In this document: positions 12,869-25,508 of the stretch, piece after piece | Layout: the number at the start of each line of letters is the position of its first letter | Position numbering within the stretch: the stretch's first letter is position 1 | Virus record (IMG/VR): IMGVR_UViG_3300048110_000435 | Location: 1-34,681 of that record | Strand: one strand, 5' to 3' | From: a virus | Length of the DNA stretch: 34,681 nucleotides | The notes under the pieces: model-generated | What the model was told of the DNA's origin: nothing | Database searches by the model: none | What the model saw: the letters and a program-made list of their open reading frames with translations, nothing else | Program-made: the position numbers and the translations under genes

Positions 12869-13234
12869 TTACGTTAAAAACCAAAGCATAGGTGGTTTTA
12901 AATCATCATTATCAATATGTATGTAACTTCTATGCAAACCTATCCTTCTAAAACCAACCATATTTAATGATTCAACTATTTTAATGCGTTTGTTAGCGTT
13001 AACACATTCTATATGAGCTGCCCTGCCAATTAAGTGAGAAGATGTAGTAGAGGCCTTGTAGTGTATCTTATTATGAGTACTAGTAATATAGCCACTAAGT
13101 ATCTTAAATCTTATTTTAGCAATATCTCTAGCCTCATCTAACATACTCATAAATTCCCTATCCATATACTTATATCCAGAACCTGGTGAATCAGGGGAAT
13201 CAAACTCTTCAAAACGAAAATACTTATATTCCAT
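12869..13234 (-). CDS. Second M15-type peptidase, altered zinc-ligand motif
   Basis: 121 aa, paralogue of the M15 protein at 14024-14380. The motif SSHLIGRAAHIECV has H67, but the zinc-binding Asp seen in the other copy (AADIAV) is H74 here. YIHIDND retains H106. The conserved SGYRT is SGYIT, losing the Arg. The gene is separated from the main lysis cassette by the mirror repeat and lies just before the terminator. It could be a His-ligated active peptidase, a wall-binding relic or a regulator of the other lysin. The fold assignment is firm, the activity is not. Confidence 0.8.
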   Translation of the reverse strand: MEYKYFRFEEFDSPDSPGSGYKYMDREFMSMLDEARDIAKIRFKILSGYITSTHNKIHYKASTTSSHLIGRAAHIECVNANKRIKIVESLNMVGFRRIGLHRSYIHIDNDDLKPPMLWFLT

Positions 13235-13455: not shown

Positions 13456-13586
13456 CGACCCTGTCCTTTATACCTCTTAGAATAGTTCTTAGAGCTCTTC
13501 AGATGACTTGATTTAGACTTACTGTGTACACCAGGTCGTTTAGTCTTAGAAGGTCTCTTATACTTGCTTATTTGAAGTCTAGCCAT
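13452..13586 (-). CDS. Very basic 44-aa peptide
   Basis: Starts MARLQISKYKRPSKTKRPG and ends SKRYKGQGR. About 40% Lys/Arg, Ser-rich, no hydrophobic core, so probably disordered. Its ATG overlaps the holin stop as TAATG. Peptides of this look are common in phages of Bacteroidota, next to structural or lysis genes. A nucleic-acid or cell-envelope-binding role is possible; none is established. Confidence 0.75.
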   Translation of the reverse strand: MARLQISKYKRPSKTKRPGVHSKSKSSHLKSSKNYSKRYKGQGR

Positions 13587-14005
13587 TATTTATGTTTTGA
13601 GTTACCAAATACTTTTTCTATCCCTCTAGAACCAAAGTATCCTCCAATTACGATTGATAAAAGACCGGTAATTGAATCCAAAGGATAACTTAAATACCAA
13701 CCTATAACATAACTAACTGTAAGAAATACCAATACTAAAGGTCTAACATTACTAGCTAACCAGGAGCCTGACCTAGCGTCTGCAACCCATCGTCTAGTTG
13801 TACCATCTATTTCTGCTCTTTCTAAATCTAGTTTTTTAAGTGCTATTTCTTTATCAGCATCACTCATATCAGAACCACCAATAATAGCCTGTATAACACT
13901 ACCTACTGCTGTATTACCTGCTACAGCTCCAACTACATCAGGTATTTTATCTAAAAGGAATTGACCTACTTTAGTATCTTTAAATTTCTTTTTGGGGGTA
14001 GACAT
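13586..14005 (-). CDS. Holin, 3TM family-like
   Basis: 139 aa. A basic N-terminus is followed by a weakly hydrophobic Gly/Ala segment (about residues 21-44), a charged helix (KEIALKKLDLERAEIDGTTR), then two strong membrane spans: VRPLVLVFLTVSYVIGWYLS and SITGLLSIVIGGYFGSR. The NVRPLVL motif after a charged helix is typical of the GTA-type 3TM holin family. It should form the membrane lesion that releases the M15 endolysin encoded 18 bases upstream. Confidence 0.8.
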   Translation of the reverse strand: MSTPKKKFKDTKVGQFLLDKIPDVVGAVAGNTAVGSVIQAIIGGSDMSDADKEIALKKLDLERAEIDGTTRRWVADARSGSWLASNVRPLVLVFLTVSYVIGWYLSYPLDSITGLLSIVIGGYFGSRGIEKVFGNSKHK

Positions 14006-14023: not shown

Positions 14024-14380
14024 TTAGTAAGTCCAAACTGAATTTGGTTTTGTATCATCGGTATCGCAATGTATAAAGGTTTTTGCGACTCCAATACGTT
14101 TAAACCCTGCTTTGATAAGGGCGTTAAGGATGATATATCTTTGGTTTCCTCCACTAACAGCAATATCGGCTGCAACTCCGATGAGGTGGCTTGAGTTTGG
14201 TACTCCTCCAACTTGCTGATTCCTTTCTTTTGTCCTGTAACCACTTGTGATCTTAAAGGGTATACCTGCAAGTTCTCTAGCGTGTTCAAGTTTATAAAGA
14301 AAGTTAGTATCCATATTCTTACCTGAATCAGATAGACTAGGACAGTTAAACTCATCAAGGGAAAAGTAATTAAGGTTCAT
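14024..14380 (-). CDS. M15 (VanY/D-Ala-D-Ala carboxypeptidase-like) endolysin
   Basis: 118 aa with no signal peptide or binding domain. Catalytic elements: SGYRT (R49), SSHLIGVAADIAV with H65 and D72, and FIHCDTD with H104 and D106. This is the complete zinc set of M15A enzymes. It should cleave peptidoglycan cross-links once the holin opens the membrane. Preceded by a small membrane protein and overlapping it as ATGA. Confidence 0.9.
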   Translation of the reverse strand: MNLNYFSLDEFNCPSLSDSGKNMDTNFLYKLEHARELAGIPFKITSGYRTKERNQQVGGVPNSSHLIGVAADIAVSGGNQRYIILNALIKAGFKRIGVAKTFIHCDTDDTKPNSVWTY

Positions 14381-14532
14381 ACAAATATGCTATATATTAT
14401 TTTCCACAAGATAAAAAACAATACAACTCCCATAAATATAAGTTTACCTTTATTATAATAGCCATCACTATTCCAATTTTCAGAAACGTATTCTATTACA
14501 GTTTCTTTTGCTAAAAACCAATATCTTTTCAT
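14377..14532 (-). CDS. Small membrane protein, 51 aa, lysis cassette
   Basis: Starts MKRYWFLAKETVIEYVSENW. A roughly 30-residue polar N-terminus is followed by one membrane span (KLIFMGVVLFFILWKIIYSI). It begins 2 bases after the CDGSH peptide stop and overlaps the M15 endolysin ATG as ATGA. It may be an accessory holin, a pinholin or an inner spanin. The spanin idea is weak, as the polar part precedes the span. Confidence 0.7.
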   Translation of the reverse strand: MKRYWFLAKETVIEYVSENWNSDGYYNKGKLIFMGVVLFFILWKIIYSIFV

Positions 14533-14534
14533 TT

Positions 14535-14612
14535 TTATTTATTTAAGTGTGAACCGTCACAATATCCGTTAGGGTTGCTAGTGCAACCACATTTACATTT
14601 TACTTCTTTCAT
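14535..14612 (-). CDS. 25-aa CDGSH-type iron-sulfur mini-protein
   Basis: The whole peptide is little more than the motif: MKEVK, then CKCGCTSNPNGYCDGSH at residues 6-22, then LNK. The predicted 2Fe-2S ligands are C6, C8, C18 and H22, with an extra C10. Canonical CDGSH motifs (CxCx2(S/T)x3PxCDG(S/A/T)H) are one residue shorter between the CxC and CDGSH parts. The ATG overlaps the stop of the membrane coiled-coil gene as ATGA, and the next gene follows after 2 bases, so it is a regular member of the lysis cassette. Metal binding is inferred from the motif. A zinc-binding alternative is possible. Confidence 0.75.
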   Translation of the reverse strand: MKEVKCKCGCTSNPNGYCDGSHLNK

Positions 14613-15019
14613 AATTTTCCTTTTTGTGAGTTACGATTGTCATCAAAGTCCATTGCTGCCTTAAGGATGATTTTATCCATCATATTATCTTGGTTTTGGA
14701 GCATTTCTCTTTGGAGGTTTATAACCATTTCCTCTAAATTATCTTTAGCTTTTACAAGCATTTCAATTTGATTCTCTTTCTTCTCTAAACTTTGTTTAAG
14801 AGAGTTTATATCATCTGGTTTACTTCCTGTTATAGTAGCTACTGTAATACCAATACTAGCTGAAATTGTTCCAATTAACATCATTACAACCTCCTTGTTA
14901 GTGTCTAGTACAGGAAACTGAATTAATGCTATAATTAAACCAATAACAAAAAGAAATATTAGTAGTGAACCTACATAACTTCTTATTTCTCTAGCTACAC
15001 CATTTTTAGGAAGTGCCAT
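14609..15019 (-). CDS. Membrane protein with coiled coil, lysis cassette, 136 aa
   Basis: Two spans (SYVGSLLIFLFVIGLIIALI and VVMMLIGTISASIGITVATI) are followed by a long coiled coil (about residues 70-125) and a charged tail. The layout of two spans plus a coiled coil recalls small phage holins or an inner-membrane spanin partner. Both ends overlap neighbours (TAATG and ATGA). No outer-membrane lipoprotein is seen nearby, so the spanin role is open. Confidence 0.7.
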   Translation of the reverse strand: MALPKNGVAREIRSYVGSLLIFLFVIGLIIALIQFPVLDTNKEVVMMLIGTISASIGITVATITGSKPDDINSLKQSLEKKENQIEMLVKAKDNLEEMVINLQREMLQNQDNMMDKIILKAAMDFDDNRNSQKGKL

Positions 15020-15159
15020 TATTTTAATTTTTTATAAATACTAATTGATGTATATACAACTGCAAGACATAAAGAAATACTTTGAAGTATCGGATTTGCC
15101 TCACTTATAGAAATGCCTAAAGCAAAAATATTAACGAAACCTATCTTCAACTCTTCCAT
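15019..15159 (-). CDS. Small membrane protein, 46 aa
   Basis: Starts MEELKIGFVNIFALGISISE, with a second hydrophobic stretch (ILQSISLCLAVVYTSISIYK) and a lysine end. It overlaps the fibre stop and the next gene start, each as TAATG. Probably the first gene of the lysis cassette and a one- or two-span holin-like protein. Family not recognised. Confidence 0.7.
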   Translation of the reverse strand: MEELKIGFVNIFALGISISEANPILQSISLCLAVVYTSISIYKKLK

Positions 15160-23809: not shown

Positions 23810-24277
23810 TTAAGCCTTCTTCTGGATAATAAACCATTCTGTTCCATCTGACCATATTTGAATACCCTCATACTCTTTATTTATCTCATAATAAGATGCT
23901 GAGCCATCAATTGTTTGACTTCCGGAAGGAGTTAAGTGTACTCTAGTATTTGTAGTAAAGGTTGTGTCAGATATAAACCTAATAACTCTATGTTGGTTAT
24001 TTGTAGCGGTTGCATCTGGTAGTGTAAAAACTGCAGTCCCATTAGAACCTGTCCAAGACAACTTTATTATTTCAGAACTTGCATATGCTGAGTCACCAAG
24101 ATTAATTGGTGTCGAGGCCTGTGCTGTTATATTTGTCGCAGTTAAGTAATTTACAATCTCCTTTTGAATATCTGAAAATTGAATCTTCTTTGTTGTTCCA
24201 CTCTGTACAATAGGAAAAACATCTGTTGTATTTAAGTCTGTTGTTGATGTTAACTCGCTTATCTTTTTATCTGCCAT
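23810..24277 (-). CDS. Fibre-like virion protein, 155 aa
   Basis: The N-terminus MADKKISELTSTTDLNTTDV, then FPIVQSGTTKKIQFSDIQ, is the attachment motif of head or tail fibres. The C-terminal part is a beta domain with GSASYYEINKEYEGIQIWS. It lies between the protease and scaffold genes, which hints at a head decoration fibre. Confidence 0.75.
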   Translation of the reverse strand: MADKKISELTSTTDLNTTDVFPIVQSGTTKKIQFSDIQKEIVNYLTATNITAQASTPINLGDSAYASSEIIKLSWTGSNGTAVFTLPDATATNNQHRVIRFISDTTFTTNTRVHLTPSGSQTIDGSASYYEINKEYEGIQIWSDGTEWFIIQKKA

Positions 24278-24492
24278 TATTGATATAATTTATGTGTGTT
24301 TTCTTGCATTAATATATTTCCATCTTCAGTATATAAGTGAAACAAATATCTAGTAATACTTCCTACTCCTTGAGCTCTTAAAGAACCATTACAACATTTA
24401 CTAGAATACGTTCTACCATCCTTGCAGAGACATCCTCTTCTACTACCTTTAGGTGAAGAGTAACTTGGTGTTTCTTTCATTCTATCTCTCAT
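24277..24492 (-). CDS. Cys-rich small protein with AQG motif, 71 aa
   Basis: Carries GCLCKDGRTYSSKCCNGSLR, then AQGVGSITRYLFHLYTEDGN. The C-x-C plus CC grouping suggests one metal site. Such small proteins occur in Bacteroidota phages and elements; function is not known to me. The ATG at 24492 overlaps the protease stop as ATGA; M5 is an alternative start. Confidence 0.7.
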   Translation of the reverse strand: MRDRMKETPSYSSPKGSRRGCLCKDGRTYSSKCCNGSLRAQGVGSITRYLFHLYTEDGNILMQENTHKLYQ

Positions 24493-25508
24493 TGTTTAGG
24501 TACGCAATTAGGCACTTTCCTGCCGTTCTTATTCTTAAATCCTACCATTTCATATCCTTCTTGACAAGGATTTACATCCTCTAACTCCTCTAAACCTTTT
24601 AGTTTAGATTTTGTCCAATTAAGCATACTTTTACCTCCCCACAACAAATAACTTATTGTACCACAAGCCTCAGGCTTACTAGGGTTATAATATTCAGCAG
24701 CTCTACTTAAGTAAGAGTATATGCGTTTAAGAGTTGGTAATGTAAATTTCTCTTTTCTCTCTAATTGTCTGGCTCTAGTTTTCCCCACTAAAGTTGCACA
24801 CTTATTACCTAATTCTTTATTCCTTTTTATACCTAATTTAGCATTATTAGATGCAGATTCTGGGTATCCACCATAAGATTCTAACTCTACGTCTTCAGAT
24901 AATAATTCAATTGCCTCTAGTAAGTCATATTCGGCATTTAATTCATCTAAACACTCTGAACAGAAAGACTCTGATATAGATTCTTTAGGTCCATCCATTT
25001 TATCAGCAAAATAACCTTCAATAGAAAATCCTTTTATCTCTCCGGCCTTTACTTGATTCCATATTTCATCATTATTAACCTTCATAGATACCATCCAGGT
25101 TCCTATAGGTAAGTCAAAGTCATATTTTCTAGATTTATCTCTTTTTTCGTCTTCTATAATCCAGGATTCAACCACAGACATACCTTCCAACTCAATATTA
25201 TGTTCTAGTGTGCTATTATTCTGATTACCATTCATTAAAAACAATTCAGAAGCCTTCCTTACGGTCTCTTCAGAGAAAAAGATGTAATAATCCTCTTCTT
25301 CACCACTTCTAAATATCTTTTTATTAGGAATAAGGGCCGCACCCATTAAAATCCTTTTTTCTTTATCTACTTCAGCTAATTTTATCTCTTTATGCTCTTT
25401 TAGAGCTACAAAGTCTTCTTCAATAGCAGGATTTTCAACAACAGAGATAGCTTCTATTCCACTAAACTCGTTTTCTTCGTCTATGATAAGTTCTATAATA
25501 CGTTCCAT
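24489..25508 (-). CDS. XkdF-like prohead protease with fused C-terminal domains
   Basis: 339 aa. N-terminal protease-like domain (1-180): NSTLEHNIELEG with H103, VVESW with E115, and KGFSIEGYF with S162, matching the XkdF-type serine protease layout. Residues about 211-300 form a distinct helical domain (SYGGYPESASNNAKLGIKRN to YLLWGG). A short Cys/Gly module at about 315-339 ends GRKVPNCVPKQ. It probably trims capsid and scaffold during maturation. The middle domain is one I associate with separate or fused phage head proteins. Confidence 0.75.
   Translation of the reverse strand: MERIIELIIDEENEFSGIEAISVVENPAIEEDFVALKEHKEIKLAEVDKEKRILMGAALIPNKKIFRSGEEEDYYIFFSEETVRKASELFLMNGNQNNSTLEHNIELEGMSVVESWIIEDEKRDKSRKYDFDLPIGTWMVSMKVNNDEIWNQVKAGEIKGFSIEGYFADKMDGPKESISESFCSECLDELNAEYDLLEAIELLSEDVELESYGGYPESASNNAKLGIKRNKELGNKCATLVGKTRARQLERKEKFTLPTLKRIYSYLSRAAEYYNPSKPEACGTISYLLWGGKSMLNWTKSKLKGLEELEDVNPCQEGYEMVGFKNKNGRKVPNCVPKQ

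Follow-up and report, generated by a model that had tools for sequence, protein, structure and literature searches.

The DNA analysed here, referred to as the window, is one virus record of 34,681 bases (IMGVR_UViG_3300048110_000435). The terminase of the window is closest to those of the Nonlabens phages P12024S/L (54% identity), suggesting that the host is likely flavobacterial. On the minus strand, the gene for a 46-aa TM protein is followed by those for a 136-aa membrane protein, a 25-aa protein, a 51-aa TM protein, an M15 endolysin and a holin-like protein (Table 1). The 25-aa protein, termed mini-CDGSH or simply mini below, occurs in exactly one copy in the window and translates to MKEVKCKCGCTSNPNGYCDGSHLNK. 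Its ORF has no longer in-frame form, because the ORF finder begins at the first start codon past a stop. The motif reads C6-K-C8-G-C-T11-...-G16-Y-C18-D-G-S-H22, which confirms the original prediction that the whole product is little more than the CDGSH motif, with C6, C8, C18 and H22 as candidate ligands and a motif one residue longer than the CISD consensus. The extra Cys in this motif (CxCGC; C10, codon 14583-14585, minus strand) is typical of the window lineage, and the same position is N or K in most minis outside it.

The gene order and overlaps are also as first described, i.e., the mini lies between two membrane-protein genes, upstream of the endolysin and coupled by ATGA. This ATGA is the overlap of the stop of the 136-aa gene (at 14609) with the mini start, and the 51-aa gene begins 2 bases past the mini stop, its own end overlapping the endolysin start. 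A Shine-Dalgarno-like stretch is found immediately 5′ of the mini start, in the 3′-terminal part of the 136-aa gene. The 136-aa protein is weakly holin-like (phrog_297, E 0.018), and no relative of it was found among deposited phages. A second M15 peptidase gene (12869-13234, minus strand; PF08291, E 3.8e-6) is located approximately 0.8 kb downstream of the endolysin.

Table 1. Features of the cassette that holds the mini-CDGSH gene (window positions).
Feature	Position	Strand	Match or basis
46-aa small membrane protein, conserved, heads cassette	15019..15159	-	
136-aa membrane protein, two membrane stretches predicted by eye, coiled-coil-like tail	14609..15019	-	
Purine-rich Shine-Dalgarno-like stretch AAAAAGGAAAATT (AAAAAGGAAAA)	14613..14630	-	sequence read
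mini-CDGSH gene, 25 aa	14535..14612	-	
51-aa single-TM protein	14377..14532	-	
M15 peptidase endolysin	14024..14380	-	PF08291 (M15_3) E 1.2e-16; phrog_894 E 2.7e-29
Holin-like 3-TM protein	13586..14005	-	phrog_3427 E 7.6e-13; GTA_holin_3TM weak

Relatives of the window were sampled as contigs with a related endolysin and were inspected at the homologous site. The motif, whose conservation the original prediction had made its test, is conserved at the same position in 19 of the 69 related contigs that cover the site, complete every time, and in many other contigs. The remaining 50 are without the mini and have the cassette intact (a clean absence of approximately 70%), and at the corresponding position the 136-aa gene is followed directly by the 51-aa gene. 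Fourteen near-full-length relatives of this kind carry no copy anywhere, while the five positive controls were detected. Within the window lineage, 25 distinct window-type motif DNAs gave a pN/pS of 0.15, or of 0.28 once the positions set by the search pattern are excluded. Since it is intact where present, shows a low pN/pS and is cleanly missing from most relatives, the mini behaves as a maintained yet dispensable cassette. Thus, it is an accessory gene of this lineage under purifying selection. Its very short length and its absence from most relatives could also be read as signs of a spurious or decaying ORF, i.e., an untranslated stretch of conserved DNA at the tail of the 136-aa gene. However, the pN/pS values at both the whole motif and the free positions, the wide synonymous variation at invariant codons and the occurrence of the same protein across unrelated contexts and phyla all speak against this explanation, and no decayed in-frame version was seen at the homologous site among the related contigs. 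On the pN/pS and the breadth of occurrence, the spurious ORF was rejected, with a very small residual probability.

This breadth emerged from motif scans of viral sequences, which gave 46 and then at least 120 matches, and from a genome scan, which gave at least 120. The motif was found in small ATG-started ORFs on more than 100 viral contigs, all viral relatives being uncultivated contigs, and on more than 80 cellular contigs. At least 187 distinct stand-alone minis of up to 45 aa were obtained (at least 97 viral and at least 90 cellular), with a median length of 27 aa among the matches listed. The cellular ones belong to marine Flavobacteriaceae, Cryomorphaceae, Flammeovirgaceae, Paenibacillus and Brevibacillus among the matches listed. 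In the family of one flavobacterial carrier, 5 of 101 sampled genomes, all five 1.7-2.2 Mb in size, gave strong matches (E below 1e-12) with an earlier version of the alignment. This earlier version included MKADRPKCGCGNTQNPEGYCDGSHLNK, a blend of two real sequences; figures not attributed to it are from the clean alignment. At threshold, the family matches no model of Pfam, PHROGs or NCBIfam and is thus unannotated; its members are too short for standard gene callers. A tblastn search of the 25-, 34-, 43- and 109-aa forms against deposited phages returned no convincing full-length relative, the power of such short queries being limited. No description of stand-alone minis of this kind was found in the open-licence literature on CDGSH in phages, viruses, Paenibacillus and small proteins.

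The minis share CxCGx[TS]x4-GxCDG[ST]H. At sites that the search patterns left free or nearly so, all 139 distinct motifs among the matches listed have T/S at motif position 6, which was free, and solely S/T at position 16. These two positions are thus fixed as in CDGSH proteins, so that the CDGSH signature returns at sites that were not searched for. The CISD/NEET proteins (PF09360) comprise seven types, of which types 3, 4 and 6 have been solved as 3TBO, 3TBM (RsCISD) and 3TBN (MmCISD), respectively (Lin et al. 2011, PMC3174974). With these proteins the minis have in common the C-x-C ... C-D-G-[ST]-H ligands, the T/S and the second shell. In terms of the 17-residue CISD motif, the ligands C2, C4, C13 and H17 are invariant in the minis, which is partly set by the search pattern; the same ligand set is found, with the spacing one residue longer, in every mini that was located by its position via the endolysin. 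(S/T)7, D14, G15 and (S/T/A)16 are all kept as well, D and G being set by the pattern.

However, the minis depart from CISD proteins in several respects. The P11 of CISD, with its S/T-X3-P spacer, is absent, and the minis instead have S/T-X4-G, i.e., a fixed one-residue insertion with Gly for the invariant Pro. In CISD proteins, hydrophobic residues at positions 1 and 12 belong to the dimer interface; of 187 minis, just 23 have a hydrophobic residue at position 1, which precedes C1, and 135 have Y/F/L/I/M at position 12. In these 187 minis the flanks are usually 1-8 residues ahead of the motif and 2-6 behind it, which is too short for the N-strand and the lid-proline (GP-phi-X-phi) strand to fit. 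Both strands, which form the beta-sandwich dimer, are required for an integral CISD according to Lin et al. 2011 (PMC3174974). The total length of 22-30 aa may be compared with the 53 residues of type 3 CISD (PMC3174974). Since they lack P11 and both strands and mostly also a hydrophobic residue at position 1, the minis are not placed among the seven types.

Motif-only CDGSH proteins that have the classical proline also occur in viral contigs and bridge both forms. A viral scan with canonical spacing gave at least 121 ORFs, of which at least 35 are 24-45 aa long (e.g., MKKCTCGESQTKPTCDGSHKNKGK). Like the minis of the window type, these are free-standing, motif-only and viral; in contrast, they retain the Pro and the consensus spacing, and 2OG-Fe(II) oxygenases, instead of lysis genes, frequently lie beside them. 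Such oxygenases are among the commonest families near 14 canonical-spaced viral minis (9 of 64 proteins among the matches listed), and in two uncultivated viral contigs (L389 and L390) a 2OG-Fe(II) oxygenase bears a canonical-spaced CDGSH motif fused to its N-terminus. Opitutae and relatives have tandem mini-CDGSH proteins, 52-59 aa in length (L259, L279, L299 and L335). They resemble the type 6 tandem CISDs in having two motifs per chain, whereas in L279, L299 and L335 the linker is approximately 7-13 residues (by eye) versus approximately 20 in type 6, and each unit is a mini motif.

The relationship to CDGSH proteins was also approached by profile and structure searches. A PDB profile search with the clean alignment matched the CDGSH proteins 3tbm (E 0.034) and 3tbn (E 0.1), aligned with a one-residue gap at the insertion, and the sole other match was 1gh9 (E 1.7). 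With the earlier alignment, 3tbm was matched with an E-value of 0.006, together with 3tbo and CISD2. An hhalign comparison with canonical CDGSH proteins of the same bacterial genomes gave 92% and E 6e-7. The window protein itself gave no match to Pfam PF09360 (zf-CDGSH), which was matched by 24 of 38 members, all under the cut-off (best E 5e-4). An AlphaFold model of a 31-aa lineage member, used in place of the 25-aa window peptide, has pLDDT 83-85 across the motif and a helix from the DGSH end. A Foldseek search of this model against the PDB returned two matches only, 3tbm and 3tbo (1.5 Å over 20 columns), with weak E-values (4.9 and 7.4) that are expected at 31 residues, and the model may mirror sequence memory. 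The profile, hhalign and fold searches thus lead essentially to CDGSH iron-sulfur proteins alone. On these comparisons, the mini resembles a CDGSH module and probably functions as one, in a new variant form, and we infer that the minis bind a [2Fe-2S] cluster.

The genomic surroundings of the minis outside the window lineage include redox and iron proteins. In marine Flavobacteriaceae, the free-standing mini either belongs to an operon-like series, in which a MarR or HxlR regulator and YceI precede it and FMN reductase and pirin follow, or adjoins trpE (MarR, HxlR, YceI, FMN_red and Pirin were assigned by Pfam, the trp genes named by eye). A YceI gene lies near the mini in 48 cellular loci among the matches listed. 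In two fusions (L332:943-1602, plus strand; L344:3-485, minus strand), the mini is followed by a signal/TM segment and by the YceI domain, a layout that would put the motif on the cytoplasmic side. In flavobacterial RicT fusions (L296, 5977-7125, plus strand; L306, L343 and L243), the mini is a C-terminal tag on the regulatory iron-sulfur complex subunit RicT (NF041131). XkdF-type phage proteases likewise carry a C-terminal mini-CDGSH (L163, L170, L218 and others). The XkdF-like protein of the window (24489-25508, minus strand) is without a mini; next to it, at 24277-24492, a Cys-rich protein of 71 aa is encoded (CLCKDGRTYSSKCCNGS). In other viral contexts, the mini forms the N-terminus of a protein of approximately 108 aa whose gene precedes one that is GroES-like by eye, the Pfam match being non-significant (L222). 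A phage GroEL gene adjoins the mini in L186 (by eye), with L189 grouped in the same observation, and a thioredoxin-like gene is near the mini in L145 and L180 (Pfam just below the cut-off).

The occurrence of one module at the termini of unrelated proteins (XkdF, RicT, YceI and the 108-aa protein) is tag-like and would suit a Zn or mononuclear-iron site, i.e., a structural Cys3His knuckle that mediates protein interaction, akin to the SEC-C of SecA, and has no redox chemistry. A length of 25 residues is usual for a zinc knuckle and very small for a [2Fe-2S] protein, and the name of PF09360 is itself that of a zinc finger type. The SEC-C motif follows the pattern C-x-C-x8-C-[HC], with the fourth ligand directly after the third Cys. 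SEC-C and the minis are both short Cys-rich terminal tags with a C-x-C-G start. However, Asp follows the third Cys in all minis, as required by the search pattern, where SEC-C has His or Cys. In addition, the CISD-type second shell (T/S, D, G, S/T) is fixed, not all of which a zinc knuckle would need; the structure and profile matches are CDGSH proteins rather than zinc fingers; and the neighbours and fusion partners are iron/redox proteins. A purely structural metal site is therefore regarded as rather unlikely.

The position of the mini next to the endolysin raises the question of a link to lysis. Among the 116 viral stand-alone minis found by motif alone, 81 have an M15 or holin-family gene within 2.5 kb (among the matches listed), and such a gene is present in 8 of the 16 viral context groups, some of the contigs being 50-114 kb long. 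This association is suggestive only, because one context group accounts for 86 of the 116 loci, so that the counts depend on one another. Several lineages have minis next to lysis genes, and minis also occur elsewhere. The original description of a CDGSH mini in a phage lysis operon stands in so far as the gene is conserved in the lysis cassette of flavobacterium-like phages. A lysis-specific reading of it is not supported, as mini-less relatives keep the cassette, many contexts are not lysis contexts and free-standing copies exist in cellular bacteria. These other contexts also rule out a single ancestral lysis-specific role. The peptide also does not resemble a holin, spanin or antiholin, which would have a transmembrane or lipoprotein segment and be required for lysis, since it is without a hydrophobic stretch and is missing from most cassette-bearing relatives.

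A direct role of the mini in lysis is possible. As a lysis regulator, the peptide would bind the membrane proteins encoded beside it or the M15 endolysin, which is Zn-dependent, and would time lysis by metal or redox state, consistent with its tight coupling to the membrane and endolysin genes (ATGA and the 2-base gap) and with the neighbourhood counts above. However, the same cassette is kept without the mini in most relatives, and lysis genes are missing from the vicinity of the mini both in the remaining half of the context groups and in the cellular loci inspected. Late accessory genes commonly gather by lysis genes, and the dependence of the counts also weakens the case. A lysis regulator is thus considered unlikely.

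The explanation that we prefer, at about even confidence, is that the mini is an accessory, probably host-derived metal/redox peptide of CDGSH type, expressed late with the lysis genes and having a labile [2Fe-2S] site. The peptide would bind a labile, solvent-exposed [2Fe-2S] cluster, with one Fe ligated via C6/C8 and the other via C18/H22, possibly as a homodimer or docked onto a partner. As a small cytoplasmic redox/iron carrier or sensor, it may then sustain the infected cell during the late phase. Late expression would come from the lysis operon through translational coupling, and the peptide itself would be dispensable for lysis, making the recurrent lysis neighbourhood a by-product of late expression. 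A redox/iron role is favoured because the operons and fusions of the relatives hold YceI, FMN reductase, pirin, RicT and 2OG-Fe(II) oxygenase. The CDGSH reading is favoured by the 3tbm/3tbn, Foldseek, hhalign and zf-CDGSH matches, with the canonical-spaced viral minis as a bridge. The loss of P11, of the hydrophobic residue before C1 (in most members), of the N-strand and of the lid-proline strand weakens this explanation. The probability not assigned to these explanations is reserved for unforeseen functions.

More broadly, we tentatively propose, with somewhat less than even confidence, that the mini-CDGSH proteins constitute a new and widespread iron-sulfur class of phages and bacteria, in which a [2Fe-2S] cluster would be held by approximately 20 residues without a beta-sandwich and which appears free-standing, in tandem or as a tag, repeatedly on lysis modules. 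If they bind [2Fe-2S], the minis would rank with the smallest iron-sulfur proteins in nature and would offer a minimal model of cluster chemistry; the CDGSH cradle would then function without the dimerisation scaffold, which bears on CDGSH origins. For phages, the mini is a candidate late redox or metal function beside the lysis genes. As operon neighbours or fusion partners of YceI, pirin, FMN reductase, RicT and 2OG-Fe(II) oxygenases, the minis may also offer a handle on poorly understood redox systems. One further protein (L207:3130-3417, plus strand) combines a mini-CDGSH with a second, shorter Cys3His-like motif (CGCGRSPTGKCIGWHGL).
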